Under the pieces are notes generated by a model, which saw nothing but the letters and a program-made list of their open reading frames with translations, was not told where the DNA came from and made no database searches. Made by a program: the position numbers and the translations under genes. Below are positions 1,249-64,000 of a stretch of 64,000 bases of DNA, in pieces. How positions within the stretch are numbered: the first letter of the stretch is position 1; the number at the start of each line of letters is the position of its first letter. The stretch is from positions 62,001-126,000 of the forward strand of contig JAQGEQ010000175.1 in NCBI GenBank assembly GCA_034620365.1, written 5' to 3'. The stretch is from Pegea sp. RAD2-039 (taxonomy: Eukaryota > Chordata > Thaliacea > Salpida > Salpidae).

Positions 1249-1574
1249 ATTGTTCAGTTTTATTGACACAAAAACCTTTTATGTTGATCAACTTTTATTA
1301 GCTTTTGTTTTTATTAGTATAATTTTGACAAACTTTCAACCATGCACAAATATTTAACTCTCAATCGTGTCTTAACCTCTTCGTGTTTCAACATTAATGC
1401 AATTAACCGCTTGTTTTTCAGCTGAAATATTTTTGACTTAATTATTTTTGTGGTTATTTCATTTTAACTGACAAAGGATTCAACAAGTTAGTTTGTTGAT
1501 TAAATTCTGTCTCTTTTCAATCTTACTTCTTCCTCAAATTATCTTCACAATCTTCTATTTTCTATTTAGGAATA
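1249..1574 (+). promoter_or_regulatory. Short intergenic spacer with poly(A)-like signal and SMG5 leader splice acceptor
   Basis: The spacer between the sulfotransferase stop and the SMG5 start has no AATAAA. It has a variant ATTAAA at 1499-1504. A long pyrimidine-rich tract (about 1508-1568) then ends in CTATTTAG at 1569, only five bases before the SMG5 ATG at 1575. This acceptor has no coding exon upstream of it. It fits a spliced-leader trans-splice site or the end of an intron in the 5' leader. A conventional promoter is not evident in so short a gap, though one inside the spacer cannot be excluded. Confidence 0.55.
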
Positions 1575-4500
1575 ATGAGCCAACGGAATCAAGAGACATC
1601 ATCCGTAAACTCATCAGCAAATGGGAGTAAAAACAGATCAAAACGACTTTACAAGTCAGTAGCTACTACCTGATATCCACAAATCACTTCAGACTTTCAT
1701 CTTCGTTCAGACTTATTAAAGATCAGATCAAAATATTAGATGAAAAAACTAAAAATCGACGAAGTCTCGTGAGCTTGTTTCAACCGGAACAGACTCGTCT
1801 TCGGTAACTTCTAAAAGATCTTCATCTAGACTTCCTTTAACTTTATTTTTAAAGACAAAAGATCCGGGACTCCTGCGAAAAACTCCTCCTCTTACATCCT
1901 TCAGATCTAAGCAAAAAAGCGGAAGAAGTGATGTGGCGAAATGTCTTCTATGACGTCATACAAGCGGTGAAAGGTAAAAGAAAAGTACGTAATACTGCAC
2001 TGTGATTGGACGATTTTTAAAACTGATTTAAATCCAGTTACAATCAAATGGAACTGTTAGCAACCAACAACGAGATCTTGTTGCTCATTATAAACAATTT
2101 CTTGATTCTGCTACTGGTTACTATCAACATCTGTTGCTGAAAATCCAAGAAAGTTGCCCTGGACTGGTGGATGTGGATTATCCTTTAATGGCTGGACCTT
2201 TTTACAATACCTCTCGCCTGAACAGAAGTCCCGGAATTCAGGTTGAGACTATCTTCCGTCCTCTTTGGTTTTAAGGATCATTTTCAGGATTTTGGAGTTA
2301 AGGAGACTGAAGATTGGGTCCGGACGATCAGTTATCGATTACTGATGTGTCTTGGAGATCTAAGTACCTCTCATTTGAGATTTATCTTTTTTTGTAAATG
2401 ATTTATTTCAGGTCGTTATCAAATGGAGTTCTATGATACTGAGAGTAGAGCAAAGAGGTTTTATCAAATGGCATCTTTAGCAAAACCTAAGATCGGGTTT
2501 CCCTACAACCAATTAGCTGCCTTGTCTGGATGTACTAAATGGTGGGGTTTAACTGCTACCTTCTACTACCACTGCGCGTGAGTTTGTTACTTTTTTGCGC
2601 TTGTCTCTTTTTGTGTTTGTTACTTTTTATGCTTGTCTCTGTTGTGTTTGTCTCTTGTTATGCTTGTCTCTTTTTGTGTTTGTTACTTTTTGTGTTTGTT
2701 ACTTTTTATGCTTGTTTCTTTTTATGCTTGTCTCTTTTTATGCTTGTCTCTGTTGTGTTTGTCTCTTTTTGTGCTTGTCTCTTTTTGTGTTTGTTACTTT
2801 TTATGCTTGTCTCTTTTTATGCTTGTCTCTGTTGTGTTTGTCTCTTTTTGTGCTTGTCTCTTTTTGTGTTTGTTACTTTTTGTATTTGTTACTTTTTGTG
2901 TTTGTTACTTTTTATGCTTGTCTCTGTTGTGGTGGTTGTTACTTTTTATGCTTGTCTCTTTTTGTGTTTGTTACTTTTTGTGTTTGTTACTTTTTGTATT
3001 TATTACTTTTTATGCTTGTCTCTTTTTATGCTTGTCTCTGTTGTGTTTGTCTCTTTTTGTGCTTGTCTCTTTTTGTGTTTGTTACTTTTTGTATTTGTTA
3101 CTTTTTGTGTTTGTTACTTTTTATGCTTGTCTCTGTTGTGGTGGTTGTTACTTTTTATGCTTGTATCTTTTTATGCTTGTCTCTTTTTGTGTTTGTTACT
3201 TTTTGTGTTTGTCTCTTTTTGTGTTTGTTACTTTTTGTGTTTGTTACTTTTTGTATTTGTAGCTTACAAGCGGAAACAATAAACGATAGTGCAGAGAATA
3301 ATCTTCAAGTTTTATTTACTAAAAATAAACAGAAATATTTTCAACTTGCCAACGATGCCTTAGAAACAGTCGCTTCTACACAATATCACAAGTAACCTTC
3401 ATCTAACCTTTGAAATCAGCAAAATAACTTCATTTTTTATAGAAGTAAACAAACAGAAGTTTTTATCATTTCCTTTCTATATTTATGTGAATTACTGAAA
3501 CCTAAATTTGCTGCAAGTGAAGCTGAGATGATAGGTTATTTCCCAATTTCAAATTTCGTTTATTTTAATCATTTTACTTCAATAGATTTATCTAAGAGAT
3601 TGATTGTAGCTTTACCATCATGTTTAGCGAGTTGTCGACAACAAGCAACTAGTTTTGAAGGTAAATAAATCACTTTTATCATCAAATCTTCATCAATTTC
3701 AATAGATTCTCAACTTGATGTTAGTGATAATGTTGAAGTAAACTCAAATACGAGTCAAAATTCTACATTCTATCTCACGTAAGACTTCTATCTTTCATAT
3801 AAACCAAATAAACCTACAAATAACTGATCATAGAATAAATGAGATGGAAAGATCTGTTGAAGCTCTTCAAATAGATGAATTTCCTCAATTAACAGATGAA
3901 GCCATCTTCCAAATCACTATAATCTCACTGATCAATTTACATGAGCTACAAGTAAGAACATCATTTGTAGATTTCGTGATTCTAAGAGATTATGTTGAAG
4001 ACTCATAAATCGGATAAACTTCCCGTCGCCATCTCATTCTACATCGGATTCTTTTCTCATCTCGCAAATCATCTTTTCCTCATCTCTACAGGTTCTTAAC
4101 TCATCTTCATCTTTCATTTTTATCATCTTTTTTCTTTAGAAGACACAAATAATCTAGAAGAGATCAATTTTGCTGATGGTGAGTGAAGATGAGGATTGGA
4201 TGAGATTTCAACATCTTTACTGATTTAAGGCGACAGCAGAAAAAGATTGAGTCCCGCTTGCATCCGTAGAAGAAGAAGAGTAACGGAAGAAAGAAAAGGA
4301 TCCGATGAGTATCACAGTGAAGACTCACTAGGAGCTGGTGATGCAGATTTAGAAGATTCAGAAGATGATGTCTCAAGTAGTCCTGAATCCTCCCAAGATG
4401 ACGAGTTCTCCGAATCTTTACGCAGCATCAACTCCAAAACTCGCCAGGTATTTCGCGAACGTCATGACGTCATCATCACCCTCTGTGTGACGTCATCAGA

Positions 4501-22800: not shown

Positions 22801-23614
22801 ACGTCATAATTTTCAGCATGACTTAAAAAGAAAGAAACAGATTTTTTTTATTTACCCTATAAACATTCTCGCACAAGAAATACTCGAAGATTTTTACAGT
22901 TTTTTTATTTATAAAGTTCAAGAACTAATATTAGAAACATTCTGAAATATTTTCCACTTCAGTTTTTTTTCTCTGATTTTCATTTGATGAAAAAGGATTT
23001 TTTGTGAAAGATTATTTTTCAATGTTTTTTTTTTAATTATAATTAAACTAAATTTTATTAAAAACAAGAATTATATGTTAATGGTTGAAACAAAAACCGT
23101 TCAGTTTGTAAAAAATGCTTGGTGTCTCCTTATGTTCTAAATTTTTTACCTTATGTACAGATAGTTCAACAACTGTTGCTTCAACTTAGCTGTATAACCA
23201 GCAGATGAGATATTGTTTTTTTGTAATAGTATTTTGACTAAACAATTTATCTTCTGGTATCAATTTAACCACATGCTTAAGAGGTTTCTACCACACATAC
23301 AGCAAAGCAAGTACAATTGTTTTAAAAACAACCCGAACTTTTAAGACACTTCAATTTCTAACCATTGAGATGAACCACTTTAGAGTTTACAAAACTTTGT
23401 AGTACCTTAAAAAGGCCGCCTTATACTAAAAAGCGGAACCTTCAATTTTAAATCATTAGTAACTTCCGAATCGAATTAGTAGTTTCGATTATTGAACCTT
23501 TAGCTCTTTAAATTAGAATTTAAAACTTTTTTCTACTTATAGATACTGCGAGTGTGTTTTATTCTAACATATATTTGCTTGAAAAATATTTATTCTAATC
23601 TGATTTCTTTTTAG
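19831..23614 (+). other. Leader intron or outron upstream of Groucho A coding exons
   Basis: AT-rich sequence between the promoter-like segment and the acceptor TTTCTTTTTAG at 23604-23614. Short open frames here (for example 19789-20013 and 21906-22109) lack similarity I can recognise, splice context or composition unlike their surroundings, and are judged chance. The exon from 23615 carries 75 nt of leader before the Groucho A start codon. Confidence 0.5.
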
Positions 23615-23689
23615 ATAAAATTAAGTAAATTTACATAGCACCAAAACCTTTGTATCGGATTCTACAGTTGGATATTAACAAGATTTTAA

Positions 23690-35257
<11,568 letters not shown>

Positions 35258-36133: not shown

Positions 36134-38725
36134 TTAAGCTATTTCGAAATTGAGTTGATGAACAGGAAGATCTAGAAATGAATGAATTGATTCAGCGATT
36201 GATTGACATTTTTCAGAACTTTTATTAAATTGTTCATTTCGTCTTGGATCAGTTTTAGAGAAGACTGAGAGAAACTGTGCGGATTTAGTATCTGCAAAAA
36301 CCTGTGCCATTTCAACCTAACAAAAAAGTAGTTTTTGTCAAATAATTAAAAAAAGATTATGAAAAGCTAATAAGGTTTAATGACAAATCATCATATAAGT
36401 TTCAATTACATTCAATTGTTTGAATAAATAAATTCCAAACGAATATTGTTTACAAGAACTTCGGATTTTCTAAGCTTTCCATTTGATAAACTTCATAACA
36501 ATTTAAGTCGTAAATTACATTTAGATGTTTACTTTCAAGTTTACTTAAAGTAAATTTAATTTTTATAAATGAATAGATAAAGCCATCTATTATAAGCCAA
36601 CATCTAAAACCAATGTTAAATGATATAGATTTGTTTTGAAGTCACAAACAGAGAGTGCTATAGAAGCTTGCAGCTTTTAAAAACTTGTCTTTTGACAGTA
36701 ATTTTAGTTAAAAACTATTTCGTAGTAAGTTAACGAAGAATTATTAACAAGTTCTTACAATAATTTAAAAACAAACTTTAGAAACTTAAAGAGAATTTTA
36801 AATATGATTTTGTGAATTTCTAAATAAGATGGATAGTTTATCAAAATGAATCTACCCAAAAATGATGATTAAAACAATTTCTAGTGAAACTGTCTACCAT
36901 CAGTCTTTATGTAGTTGAGAATTGATAAGATAGAAAATCCCAAAAACTCATCTATTTTTAACTAGTTAGATTTTAAAACATCTAATATCTCTCTTAGTAA
37001 AAGCAAAATAGCCAAAAAATAAACTACATTTGTCCAGTGTACAAAAAACAGACAAAAAGAAATAGAAGAAACCAGAACATGATGAACAACAGAAGATGTA
37101 GTTTATGATTTATTTGTGAAGCACTTGAAAGTTGATGTTTAAATTTGAGAATTTTTCACAATAGAAAAACTTCTAAAGGGCAAGTAATGAAAGAATAATC
37201 TGAATTTAGTTGATGTAATTTGATAAACGTTTTTCAGTGGAAAAAAATCATCAAGAAAATAATAGTAGAAAGAAGCAAGTGGTGTGAATAGCATTCGACT
37301 GCGGAAAAGATGTGGTAATCAATAAGTTTTTTCAAATTGAGGTTATATTACAATCCTTTCAAGGATTCAATTAAGCACTTAAAAAAAAAACTTTAATTTG
37401 ACTTCAGTAAGCTTTTAGCTAAATTTTTTTACTAAGCATCATTATGAGATTAAATAATAATTAGTTTAAATTCTTTGATTGTATGGCTTATATTACAAAG
37501 AAAATAATTATGTTTAACATCAGGTTAAAACATGTATTTATAAAACAATCTTTTTTTTTAAACCAACGTCTACGTTACTCAGTAGTTTTAAAGACTAATA
37601 TAGATGGCATCTTGACATAATAATTGAAAAATTGCTGATTATCTAGTAATATTTTAAAGATGAAGATAACCCTGATAAAAAGAAGAAAGCAAAGATTTAC
37701 AAGTAAATGAATTTGTTTACTGAACATTTATTAATGTACTTTAGTTTAAAAATAAATGTTTAAACATAACAGTGTCAACAACTGACTCTAAAAATATAAC
37801 AAAAAAACAGTTTTTTTATGTTACAAAATTTTTAAATATACTAATTACAAAAATTAAAGAATGAAAAACAAGATAGTTAACTTATTTGCATGTAAAAAAA
37901 GAACTTGGCAAGAATGTGATTAAGACAGAGAATTTGTGTAAGGAAGCTGATTAAATTGAAATATCTAGCTGTAAATTTGGTAAATATATATGCTGAAACC
38001 TAAAGCTTGTAAAATCTATCATCGCCTTTCTATAATGATTGGTAAATATTAAGGAGAATGTGGTTAAAAGCTTTCTAGATGAAAACTAGATAGCAGGCAT
38101 CGACAAATAAACCAAAATTTGAAACAAAATACATTTTACAGTTGCTTAAGCTTTGAAAATGATATACTGTTTACAAAACTTCTTTAAAAAGTAGAAAAAT
38201 AATGGAAAACTTAAACACACCAAAAACTTCACGAGAAAAAGCAATCCTATTATAAAGCTCTTTGGTAAGAGTTAAGTTGACCACAAGAATGTTAAAGCAA
38301 TAGTTGGAACTGTTGTATAAAGTAAAGTTTCAAGCCCGGCTTGATTAAAAGTGTATCCAACAAAAAATAAACAATTTGAAGTTTGTAGTTTTTGAGGTAT
38401 ATCTTAATCAAAACAATTAGCTTATTTAATTTCATTTTCATAAATACATGTTTACGTGAGATTATAGATTTATAATTATCATACAATCTAAATATTTATT
38501 TAGTAAATAATAATAAATAATAATAAGTCTTGTGATTGGAAAATTAAATATTGAAGATATAAGTAAAAAGCATGATAAAAAAATCATAAAATTCTTGTTC
38601 TAAATCATCATAAGATGAAAAATACATATAATAAAACATACTTGAATCATTTTTATATCATTAATAATTTCTTTACACCTTTCAGCAGTTTCATGATAAT
38701 CAATAGACGTTTTAGAGGTTTCCAT
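36134..38725 (-). CDS. Unrecognised small two-exon gene, 88 aa
   Basis: Exon 1 is 38725-38642 (28 codons, METSKTSIDYHETAERCKEI...), ending in donor GTATGT. Exon 2 is 36316-36134 (60 codons plus TAA) after acceptor TTTTTTGTTAG; both borders are phase 0. The protein is hydrophilic and probably mostly alpha-helical (KCQSIAESIHSFLDLP near the end), with no signal peptide, membrane segment or metal-binding cysteines. Support: clean splice signals, an unbroken joined frame across a 2.3-kb intron, a leader acceptor (AAATTTAG at about 38740) 14 nt before the ATG, and AATAAA 20-60 nt after the stop. I do not recognise the family; its size and helical look recall small subunits of trafficking complexes such as BLOC-1/BORC, but no motif proves this. 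It lies between the two Groucho genes on the opposite strand. Confidence 0.72.
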
Positions 38726-41700
38726 GTTCTATTGGGTCACTAAATTTTAAATACTTTTAAAATCTGTAAGTTATAGTTTTAGTATCCGACAATTAATGGT
38801 TTAAATATAATGCTAATTATCATAAATTACTTTCAAATCTGCTTTCATCTTTAAAAAAGTTAAAATATAAACCCAATGAGTGCATTAAATCATCTTAAAT
38901 AAAATTAAATAAAGACAACATTGAAACGCAAGAATTATGAAATATTAAAACATTTTTCAATTAAATGAAATTGTGATTAATTAAGATTGATATTTTTCAA
39001 CTTTTTGTAAACCTTTTGAAAATAGGAGATAAAAATTATCTTTATAAAAACGTTGACAGTTTTATAAAAATAATTCTCTTGTGCTTCGATATATAATTCA
39101 ATTAATTTAAATTGTAACAAAGTATTAGTCTTGTTATAGACAATTTTTCACTGAAAGTAACTTTTGCTAGGTGATGCTAGTAATAAAATTAATACTTAAA
39201 GATAATCTTTAAATATTTACATCAATATCAGCACAATATTTTGATCTTTCAAGATTTAAAAATGAGTTTAAATAATGAACTGTTGACATAAAATTTATAA
39301 TAAAATCTTTTACAACGAATAAAGATATTTTATGAGCCATCTACAACCGTAAGACTTAGTGAGTCTTTAACATCTTAGTATTTTGTGACCATAACTTACT
39401 TGATTGGTATTAGTAATTTTATACGTGAATTATATGTGCAGCCAACTAGTTAATGCTTTGTCGAGACAACTAGCAAGTGCTTTTTTTCCAGCCAACTAGT
39501 ATTTTTTACAACTTTTTCTCAGAAAAAGCCCTTAAAAAAATTATCAAATAACTTATTGCGTAGTTGATATATGATATTTTAGTCTAAAAATATGTAATAA
39601 TTTCTGAGTTAAAAACTTTAAAATTATGATAATTACAGCTTGTAAATGCATGTTATAAAAGCCTGATATAAAATGAAAAAATAATGAATGGTTACTATAT
39701 AAAAATGCAATTTTTCTTTAAAAACTACAATTAAAGGATAAATATTTTTTTGAAATACATGCAAGTTAAAAGCAAATGAAAAAATGAGTGAACATATATA
39801 AAAATTCATATTACCAAAACAAAAATCTAAACCAACAAAAATCTCATTAAAATCCAATTGAAAACTATAAACAAAAGTATAGGGTTTCCCAAATTCCCAT
39901 TTATAATGAGATTTAAAAGCAGTTGATTTTTCAAGTGTTTAACAGGCAATTCTAAATATAGTTTATTTAAATAATCAGTATAACTGACGTAAGGTCTCTA
40001 CAACATTTGACAAAATTTATGTCGAGCCTTAGGTCGATATAACTACTAAAACTAAATCTAAACAAAGTAATAAATTCACTTATTTATAATTAAACATCTT
40101 TAAAATTAAAAAGATAATAGAAAAATAATTAATCAAAATTTATTTTAAGAAACGTGCGTATAAGATAGTTAATTTAAACAGTAACTACTAATTTAAATCT
40201 AGAAATTTGTTTGTTGAAGGAAGTTAAAGGAAATTAACAACATAATATAAAAATATGAATGACGAATGTTATTAGCATAACAGAAAAATTTTAATTATTG
40301 ACTATGATAGATGGTTGGTATTGATTGGTATTGATTGCACGAAAATAAAACATCAAATTTATCAAAAAATTAAATGTGATATAATTTCAAGAAAAATTAC
40401 AAAATATTTAGTTATTAAAAATGATTATTACGAAAACTTATAGTTAAGGTTTAAAATTTTTTGGATTTTATAAATAATGGCAACAAAATTACTAAAAAAA
40501 AATTTATTTCATGACGTTAGATATTTTGATTAAAATAAAAGAAAATTTTATGTTTAAATTTTAGTTACGTAAATAAAAAGTATATTTTATAAAATGTGCG
40601 GAAATTAAAATATAACATTAAAAAAATAAGATTAATTGTGAAAAAGTGCTAATTTACAAAATAAACTACCTGTTGAATAAATATATTAAAATTTAGAAAC
40701 ATTCAAGGTTATTCTTCTAAATAATAATAAAAAACTTTAAAGTAAATTTAGAATCAGCTTTTAAAAGAGCAATTGATTAGAACTAGAAAACATTGGAAAC
40801 TATGATTAAGTAATATATGGCAATCAGTAATTGACTAAGACGTATACTTAATTTTTAATTGGCTGATAAACTAATTAATGATTTTACGTAATTGGCTTTT
40901 CTACTTAAATAAATGTAAGTTTTAATTATCTCAATAGCTCAAAATAACAACTAGTTAGCATAAACTCAATACAAGCTCCACCAAGTATAACTTAAAATTA
41001 TTAGTGCTATTATTGTTACTTATTACTAACAGAACAATTTTTTGATGTCATTAAAAAATCCTTAAAATATAAAGAGCTTAAGTTATTAATACTTAATTTA
41101 ATTTGAATCAGAATACTTATAATTTAATTTGATACAGAATGTTATATACAGATATAATTTTAGAAATATTACTTATTGGTATCGTATTGAATTTGAACTG
41201 TACTACTTTTGCAAGAAATAAAATTCTAATCTAAGCATGCAGCAGAATTTTTATCAAAAATTATATTTTATTTGTGAGTTTTTGTACCTTGCTGAAAACT
41301 ATCAGCTCAATAATAGCATAAGATAGCATTTATATACAAGCTGTAATGTAAGGCATTGAACTGATTCTTTTCATATACTAAATATAAACTATATTTAAAT
41401 AATTATACAAGTGAACAGCTAATAAATTAACTTGTTTCAGTAAAACAAGAAGATAAGTAAAAGCTGTACAAACACTTATAAGAAAAAATAACTTTTTTGC
41501 TGAGCTAAAAGTAAAAAGATCTATCTAAAAAACTTAATCAAGGCCAAGTTACTATACCACCAAAGCTTGTAATATACGAATATAGAAGTATTACTTTGAA
41601 TATAGGCCTTTTAAAGTATCAAATACTGCTCAAAAGTGAAAACTAAACTTTTCTGATATTCCCTTAGTTATTACTTTGGGTATTAAGACATTTTCGCTTA

Positions 41701-44700: not shown

Positions 44701-45259
44701 TAAATCTAACTTCAGTAAATATCTCAGATATTTTATGTTAATTCTTTGATTTGTTTATATTTTGATGCAATTTAAACAGTTGTTGATATTTTAAAAGTTT
44801 AAAGATTTTAAGCAGGTTAAAAGAAGTTCACTTTTATTTCCATAATTGCATTAACTTAAAATAATTAAAGTTGAAACATAGGTCAAATATTTAAGAATTC
44901 TTGTTAATGTTTATCAAAATATCTTGTTGGTTTTATACGCAAATATGTAATTAAATAGATTTAAGTATCTGTTTAACTAATTTTATCATTTCGATTTTAG
45001 AAAGCTTAAAGTATATCAATCTAATTCATTTTAACTAATTTTTTTAAGGACTTCTTAAGAATTTTATATCTGTTTTATGAAAAGTGTTCCTTCAAAGTCA
45101 TCATTAATAAGTCTCAAACAGGTTAAGTGGAAAAAGTTAATTAGTATTGAATTTATCAACTTTCACTTACTAAAAGATGTTTTAATGATTTTTATGTCAA
45201 TAGATAACGTCTTTTAACTCATAAAAATATTCAAGTCTTTTTTTTTTTGTAAATTTTAG
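38726..45259. other. AT-rich spacer and presumed 5' region of Groucho B
   Basis: No gene supported on either strand; open frames such as 39633-39857 (-) are low-complexity chance frames. It contains a direct repeat CAGCCAACTAGT at 39439-39450 and 39489-39500 exactly 50 bp apart, a CACGTG at about 42337, and a cluster of ATCTTT palindromes near 43355-43430. The Groucho B promoter should be in this interval, but I see no clear core promoter. Confidence 0.55.
43355..43430. promoter_or_regulatory. Cluster of ATCTTT/AAAGAT palindromes upstream of Groucho B
   Basis: Within 75 bp are two single CTTTGT (SOX/TCF-like) cores, the perfect 14-bp palindrome ATCTTTATAAAGAT (43382-43395) and the inverted repeat ATCTTTAA-6 nt-TTAAAGAT (43405-43426), next to GATAAGATTA. 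It lies 1.9 kb before the Groucho B coding start. A role as an enhancer bound by HMG-box or GATA factors is inference only; AT-rich DNA yields such motifs often. Confidence 0.3.
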
Positions 45260-45314
45260 GAAAAACTTAAACAGATTGAAACAGAAATTATATCTGAAGA
45301 ATACAGTTGTCAAT

Positions 45315-55187
<9,873 letters not shown>

Positions 55188-63160: not shown

Positions 63161-63445
63161 TCAGTCATGCTTTTGTAATTGCTCCAAACGCTTCTTATGT
63201 TGTTCAATCTTTTCTTGAAGTCTTTTAATATCAGCTTCGTGTTCTTGAATCTCATCATTGTGGTGATCTTTCAGAGCAGAGAGTTGTTCTCTTTCAAGTT
63301 GACGAAAGTATTGATTTTCATCAGCAGCACCTTTCTTGGTTAGCTTTTCGTTGACTTTGTTACCATCACCACCACTAGACATACTTCTCAAAATAATTCT
63401 TGAAGTAAAAGCTCTACGGAAGACAGTTACAGGTGACAGAGACAT
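63161..63445 (-). CDS. Mitochondrial ATP synthase inhibitor factor IF1
   Basis: Single coding exon of 94 codons. The first 20 or so residues (MSLSPVTVFRRAFTSRIILR) have arginines and no acids, as expected for a mitochondrial import presequence. The inhibitory core ENQYFRQLEREQLSALKDHH corresponds to the conserved minimal inhibitory region of animal IF1. A charged heptad-patterned helix (EADIKRLQEKIEQHKKRLEQL) follows and would form the dimerising coiled coil. IF1 binds F1-ATPase at low matrix pH and stops ATP hydrolysis. The glycine-rich stretch before the core is shorter than in mammals. TTTTAG acceptors lie 22-29 nt upstream of the ATG, so the leader is spliced although the coding part is not. 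Confidence 0.93.
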   Translation of the reverse strand: MSLSPVTVFRRAFTSRIILRSMSSGGDGNKVNEKLTKKGAADENQYFRQLEREQLSALKDHHNDEIQEHEADIKRLQEKIEQHKKRLEQLQKHD

Positions 63446-64000
63446 TTTATCAAGTTTGAGATTTATCTAAAATCTAAAAGTTTTCAAAACAAAATATTAA
63501 AAAAATTCAAAGATTTATTCAAATTGTAATAATATATAAAGTCAGGTTTAGAATGCTAAAATACAAATTTAAAAATTTGATAAAAATTAATATAAATTAT
63601 AATTATGAAAACTTAAATATTAAATCAAAAACTTAAAAAAAGATTTCTTATCTTGTGAAAAAAGAATTATTCAAAAGAAATAAAAACTGAAATAATAATA
63701 AATTTATAATATATAAGTAGATATTTATATTATATTTGTAATTTGAAATTGATGTTATAGTTTGTTGTTTTTGATAATTATATAAATAATTAAAGTAAAA
63801 TATAAAAACATCTAAAGTAGATGTATATATAAATTAAGATAATTAATACAATAAATTTTCTAAAAATAATTAAATAAAAGTGTAAATTTATAATTTACTT
63901 TTTTAATTTTAATAATCATATCAATAAAAATTTACGCTTTAAATATTCTTATTTTAAATACAGCTTAAAGTTAAAAAGTTTTAGTTTTTAGATAATCTAT
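63446..64000. other. AT-rich upstream region of IF1
   Basis: Contains the candidate leader acceptors (read on the minus strand) at about 63466-63475. The rest is highly AT-rich with no recognisable feature. Confidence 0.5.

Follow-up and report, generated by a model that had tools for sequence, protein, structure and literature searches.

Genes of the window and the acceptors before their start codons

The window analyzed in this study, which is the whole 64,000-nucleotide stretch from the genome of Pegea sp. RAD2-039, carries SMG5, two Groucho/TLE genes, IF1 and a small minus-strand open reading frame (ORF). The start codon of SMG5 is at positions 1575–1577 of the plus strand, where the translation reads MSQ and then KRLYK, and those of Groucho A and Groucho B, each beginning with MFP, are at 23690–23692 and 45315–45317, respectively, of the same strand. 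These N-termini correspond to those of the human proteins, and the exons after the three starts were placed by tblastn with human SMG5 and TLE1 sequences as queries. The ATG of IF1, whose first base is at 63445 on the minus strand, was assigned by a match to Pfam IATP (E 1e-8). The small ORF, with the first base of its ATG at 38725 on the minus strand, had no Pfam match and is itself unverified as a gene, leaving four genes with good support. The two Groucho/TLE genes form a tandem pair, both on the plus strand (23614–35254 and 45259–55187). In an SMG5 intron, positions 2580–3260 are taken up by related TTTGTGTTTGTTACTTTTTATGCTTGTCTC units in a long array, in which long open frames are kept in three frames.

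Upstream of SMG5 and on the same strand is a sulfotransferase-family gene, of which the exon at 430–741 matched Pfam Sulfotransfer_2 with an E value of 1e-18. Its last exon occupies positions 1036–1248, the exon start being placed by eye and the stop, which ends at 1248, being computed. Thus, 326 nt separate the sulfotransferase stop from the SMG5 ATG.

An earlier note on this DNA claimed that a splice acceptor precedes the start codon in all five genes. All five sites were present, one of them before the ORF without a family match. The acceptor of SMG5, TTTTCTATTTAG at 1556–1569 on the plus strand, ends 5 nt before the ATG, and those of Groucho A (23601–23614) and Groucho B (45246–45259), also on the plus strand, end 75 and 55 nt before theirs; these three positions and distances were as claimed. 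The same was true of the minus strand at 38740–38754, where the acceptor-like sequence AAATTTAG places a TTTAG 14 nt before the ATG of the small ORF. Before the IF1 ATG, both of the claimed acceptor-like TTTTAG sequences were found at 63467–63489 of the minus strand, of which the TAGs end at 63467 and 63475, i.e., 21 and 29 nt from the ATG; the second end had been given as about 63474 and the distances as 22–29 nt.

These sites have to be read against an AT-rich background. On both strands of the window, 361 of 1874 ATGs (19%) had a TTTAG no more than 80 nt upstream, and 128 of 1877 had one no more than 30 nt upstream. At the 19% background, the probability of finding such a site in five of five genes is about 3e-4, for a motif and a distance that were picked after seeing the data. 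Moreover, the position-weight scores, whose weights and thresholds were set by hand and untrained, were 0.75 for Groucho B and 1.55 for IF1, so that two of the five acceptors are weak or middling. A leader intron requires a donor, whereas an outron can do without one. Upstream of the five acceptors, no GTRAG was found over 321 nt for SMG5, 534 nt for IF1 and 600 nt for each of the other three.

Acceptors and donors upstream of other start codons

The genome searched comprises 105.7 Mb in 387 contigs, among which no match to COX1 was obtained. Genes of the Ras superfamily, which had 147 matches genome-wide, were chosen for start codons that lie close to a recognizable domain. Forty places in which the match began at profile positions 1–3 were hand-picked from the 147, with some such places left out; 31 of them, with an in-frame ATG no farther than 130 nt from the domain, were kept and the other nine dropped. 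An acceptor with a score of at least 2 was found within 80 nt of 19 of these 31 starts. Of 30 stretches farther upstream (−160 to −240), four had one (Fisher p 1.6e-4), as did 22% of 1863 ATGs in the window. About 12 of the 31 starts lacked an acceptor of that score. In a score-free count, TTNYAG occurred 18 times in the first 50 nt (0–49 nt) upstream of the 31 starts and 6–10 times per 50-nt bin beyond that; each of three scrambled words occurred 2–9 times in the same bins, and one of them peaked, at 9, in the first bin. At three starts, L113, L115 and L119, the AG abuts the ATG directly. Of these, L113 is presumably Rab23-like and L115 Rab3-like, the names being given from human sequences. 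The acceptor signature extends from the genes of the window to other genes of the genome.

Donors were scarce upstream of the same starts. Sequence upstream of the 31 Ras starts, 10,034 nt in all, contained four GTRAG in sense and eight in antisense, and the reversed word occurred six times. In stretches extended to about 1.1 kb upstream of 20 Ras starts, a subset of those in which an acceptor had been recognized (at least five more of this kind, L099, L122, L130, L133 and L136, were left out), a donor with a score of at least 4 was found in 0, 2 and 4 of the 20 within 320, 600 and 900 nt, respectively. The corresponding numbers for coding introns were 11, 13 and 13 of 17; these introns were modelled by maximizing splice scores, which favours introns, some of their donors are weak, and four intron positions in the WD40 part of Groucho A that could not be modelled were left out. 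The start acceptors were also below the intergenic background, which was 16, 27 and 36% at the three distances. With a donor score of at least 5, the contrast between starts (0, 1 and 2 of 20) and introns (6, 7 and 7 of 17) was weaker (p 0.005, 0.014 and 0.052). With a score of at least 3, donors were found for 2 of 29 start acceptors (24 Ras and five window sites) and for 16 of 26 in a comparison set (p 2.5e-5); the latter consisted of the 17 modelled introns and nine Ras exons without a near ATG, two of which, L104 and L131, are possibly not internal, since an ATG lies farther upstream of them. Finally, when positions were tiled over gene bodies and intergenic parts, a donor was found for 50% of the sense and 23% of the antisense positions in gene bodies and for 26% of the intergenic ones; upstream of the Ras starts, the counts were 3 of 31 (sense) and 6 of 31 (antisense). 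A caveat here is that the G+C content of most gene bodies (26–40%) exceeds that of the intergenic parts.

Because 14 of the 17 modelled introns are at most 605 nt long and donors are missing upstream, the start-proximal acceptors can be called orphans over the distances that ordinary introns of this genome span. The outron signature, i.e., an acceptor near the start codon and no strong donor upstream, was found for the five acceptors of the window and for a selection of 20 Ras starts, as judged from sequence only. The lack of donors is the strongest argument in favour of trans-splicing, and an absence of splicing would leave no donor either.

The main rival to trans-splicing is that of conventional, cis-spliced leader introns, in which every gene would begin with a non-coding first exon of its own and the start-proximal acceptor would end an intron of the 5′ untranslated region (5′-UTR). 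Such introns are common in animals, and 3 of the 17 modelled coding introns are longer than 1.3 kb, so that the donor might be farther away than the sequence inspected. The four starts that do have a donor within 900 nt are also compatible with leader introns, and leader introns longer than about 0.9 kb may exist. Nevertheless, the paucity of donors at shorter distances, below even the intergenic level, argues against them, and for SMG5, where the 321-nt gap is free of GTRAG, any first exon carrying a standard donor would need to be located inside or beyond the sulfotransferase gene. Leader introns are thus considered rather unlikely, and trans-splicing is favoured over them because the acceptors have no donor at the ordinary intron distance.

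Similar to SMG5, the small GTPase gene at L134 closely follows another gene on the same strand. A Pop5-like ORF (Pfam RNase_P_Rpp14, E 2.6e-21) ends about 270 nt before the GTPase start; together with L209, L134 is at C3:535147-536327, and a strong acceptor lies 42 nt before the GTPase ATG. No donor with a score of at least 4 was found in the upstream stretch of this GTPase. The Pop5-like ORF was the sole recognizable upstream gene among the listed ORFs of at least 48 codons in the 20 extended stretches, where two ORFs were run against Pfam and the others were judged by eye. The two tight same-strand pairs, sulfotransferase–SMG5 and Pop5-like–GTPase, are compatible with operons.

Small RNA genes with snRNA-type promoters

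The U2 and U5 genes share a promoter element with a consensus near CCCACAAAYNCYARRCTT, which is about 57 nt before the RNA start, and a related element lies about 64 nt before the start of the U6 genes. Genome-wide, the core of this element had 124 matches, compared with 35 in a reversed control. Given that the searches recovered the genes of U2, U3, U4, U5 (identified by eye), U6, U8, RNase MRP and tRNA-Sec, the promoter motif is right; a snoU6-53 match was also among those found. The pattern is strict, and some U2 copies fall outside it. The U2 genes were found in both orientations among U6 and U5 genes at kilobase spacing (L014–L028, on C32, C39, C81 and C101). No copy of the core was found in the window, where an Rfam scan also gave no match at gathering scores. 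Among the promoter matches read of the 124, there was no canonical spliced-leader (SL) RNA. The search also yielded multi-copy families in which the same promoter is combined with an Sm-like site and a 3′ hairpin, and of which the members scanned had no Rfam match.

The promoter followed by GT and an Sm site gave 195 matches versus 80 in the control, and with GTRNR instead of GT, there were 56 matches versus 1 in the reversed control. As identifiers of SL RNA, the GTRNR matches were ruled out by a control with TGRNR, which gave 69 matches versus 0. Hence, the class of promoter/Sm genes is real, and the possession of a donor does not characterize it as a whole.

The best candidate for an SL RNA within this class is the C104 family, of which 11 copies were identified on C104, C261, C267, C273, C275 and C286, all outside the window, by the 19-mer AGTTTCATTTATGGAATTG with at most one mismatch. 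At that stringency, no copy of the 19-mer was found in the genome outside the family, nor was any retrocopy carrying it. The genes have an snRNA-type promoter, and by the spacing of U2 and U5, with U3 and U4 compared by eye, the RNA is expected to start at the 19-mer. Following the 19-mer is GTAT or GTAC in 9 of the 11 copies and GATA in the other two. An Sm-like site, ATTTTGG (ACTTTGG in L180), is about 25 nt beyond the GT, after a predicted second hairpin and before a third. Three hairpins were predicted in all 11 copies. In the first, the two halves of the 19-mer pair with each other, and in most copies the base preceding the 19-mer pairs with the G of the donor; the second hairpin was in the same register in five copies and in a different one in six. 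In the predicted helices, 95% of the cells pair, with no change on both sides and no excess over shuffles, the copies being too alike for covariation. The 19-mer (+1 to +19) is the most conserved part of these genes, with a mean pairwise difference of 0.019, compared with 0.088 for the promoter, 0.074 for the spacer, 0.085 for the part between the 19-mer and the Sm site and 0.079 for the Sm/3′ part.

In a multi-copy SL RNA gene, the features sought by SLIDR are an exon, a GT donor, an Sm motif (default AT{4,6}G) 20–60 nt downstream and stem-loops (PMC7986045). The search for an SL RNA gene that the earlier note had proposed thus led to a family with a GT in most copies and an Sm-like site; since GTRNR is not enriched over TGRNR in the gene class, the GT of this family could be a chance occurrence. 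The C104 family is therefore a candidate SL RNA and not proof of one. A second candidate has five copies on C8, three of which were read, and GTATAT follows a 13-nt stretch in it. The leader strings of both candidates had no occurrence in the literature searched.

In total, more than 100 genes for short Sm-site RNAs driven by the snRNA-type promoter were found in clustered arrays among the matches listed genome-wide. Arrays with Sm sites were seen on C22, C64, C72, C91, C92, C94, C96 and C102, on C178, C188, C224, C238, C247, C254 and C278, and on others, and Sm-site RNA loci are among L059–L072, L090–L098, L139–L157, L170–L178, L186–L190 and L192. Copies were compared for the families of C22 (8 copies, of 22 places listed), C102/C247 (10), C188 (9) and C72 (8). 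Their first 12–19 nt differed by 0.36–0.60 per site, compared with 0.13–0.38 for the upstream spacers, and the aligned Sm/3′ parts of C22, C102 and C188 differed by 0.01–0.05; C72 was compared ungapped only, and ungapped values for the Sm part are unreliable where the Sm site is misplaced. These four families are unlike one leader in their behaviour. The first 19 nt of the C64 type (four copies; 0.026 versus 0.039 for the spacer) and of the C91 type (three copies; 0.070 versus 0.031) are conserved, to an extent that does not clearly exceed that of the spacers. As to the hypervariable families, they may represent alternative leaders or guide-like Sm RNAs, or else be copies in decay.

Trans-splicing could be real and the C104-type RNAs could still be other Sm-bound RNAs, SmY-like or of a different kind, with the true SL gene missed. 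Many members of the superfamily have no fixed GT and several have hypervariable 5′ ends, the class as a whole shows no preference for GT, and a strict promoter pattern of which a subset of matches was read could have passed over the true gene. Against this, the C104 family differs from those of C22, C102/C247 and C188 by having its most conserved segment at +1 to +19 (0.019 versus 0.074–0.088 elsewhere), and its predicted layout has three hairpins with the Sm-like site before the last. We regard this possibility as a serious one, if short of even odds, and the assignment of the C104 family as the leader donor as tentative, with the odds against it. Similarly tentative is a broader Sm RNP repertoire, in which there would be either many alternative leaders or guide-like Sm RNAs beside trans-splicing with a leader from the C104 family. 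The Sm-RNA genes with hypervariable 5′ ends form an unexplained set that could be a distinct class.

The 5S array was also inspected as a possible host of SL genes, and in its four complete units (C1:1385410-1386691) no Sm-bearing SL gene was seen by eye. This tandem array is very small (L009–L013), with four complete copies and one truncated copy; a diverged copy is on C84, and the copy number is a lower bound, 47 of 880 candidates having been scored. The spacer of the 5S units (L009–L012) contains GCTTATTACAATTAAGGT, of which GCTTATTACAA also occurs in the spliced leader of bdelloid rotifers. In one unit the sequence is GCTGATTAC, after which no Sm site was seen.

Proposed trans-splicing and comparison with known systems

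Taken together, our results suggest, with a probability of about 0.6, that many genes of this genome, those of the window included, are SL trans-spliced. The pre-mRNA would begin some way upstream of the start codon with an AU-rich outron that has no usable 5′ splice site. Its first 3′ splice site would be a T-rich YAG 0–80 nt before the start codon, and this YAG would be joined to a short capped exon from an Sm-class SL RNA that is made elsewhere from an snRNA-type promoter, for which the 11-copy C104 family is the best candidate. The use of the acceptors, their use in trans and the C104 family as the source of the leader are all inferred. The trans-splicing proposed by the earlier note has thus gained in that the acceptors generalize, the upstream donors are missing and a candidate SL RNA family exists; what does not fit as well is that GT is unenriched over TG and that about 12 of the 31 Ras starts are without an acceptor of score 2 or more.

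That the mRNAs are unspliced and start just upstream of the ATG, with TTTAG as chance or T-rich start-proximal sequence, would suit the AT-rich window, the low-scoring acceptors and the missing donors, and is nonetheless improbable, as the excess upstream of the 31 Ras starts is largely specific for AG and the three scrambled words had no comparable peak.

Among animals, SL trans-splicing has a patchy distribution, and there is debate about its origins and losses. A signature from the genome alone, composed of orphan start-proximal acceptors and of candidates with an snRNA promoter and an Sm site, provides a testable call for an animal. If the candidate leader were correct, it would explain the formation of 5′ ends in this animal and the way in which closely spaced genes could share a transcript.

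In tunicates and acoels, the use of trans-splicing is also partial. In Ciona, about 50% of genes are trans-spliced, and in these the first donor is weak and the outron rich in A+U; an earlier view was that trans-splicing needs the upstream donor to be absent (PMC11155486). In the acoel Symsagittifera, 30.2% of genes are trans-spliced (PMC9911081); the same paper gives 43% GC for the genome of Xenoturbella bocki. For B. plicatilis, no leader was found in an EST study (PMC1925144). Similar to SL trans-splicing in Ciona and the acoel, the system proposed here from genome sequence alone would combine partial use, absent or weak upstream donors and AU-rich outrons. Different from the leaders of Ciona and the acoel, the candidate leader of this genome was not found in the literature searched.

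Comparisons were also made with Sm-bound RNAs of nematodes. Similar to SmY, the RNAs described here are short, have Sm sites and hairpins, and form several multi-copy families; the members scanned gave no SmY match at E values up to 0.5 or 1. The first stem-loop of SmY is conserved, whereas the 5′ part is hypervariable in the families of C22, C102/C247, C188 and C72 and conserved in that of C104. Nematode SL1 (Rfam RF00198) had no match among the 50 of 41002 candidates scored, and as it had none in any control genome either, this negative carries no information. In nematode SL RNAs, the exon and the donor side are in stem-loop I and the Sm site precedes the last hairpin. The predicted layout of the C104-type RNA is like that of nematode SL1 and SL2.
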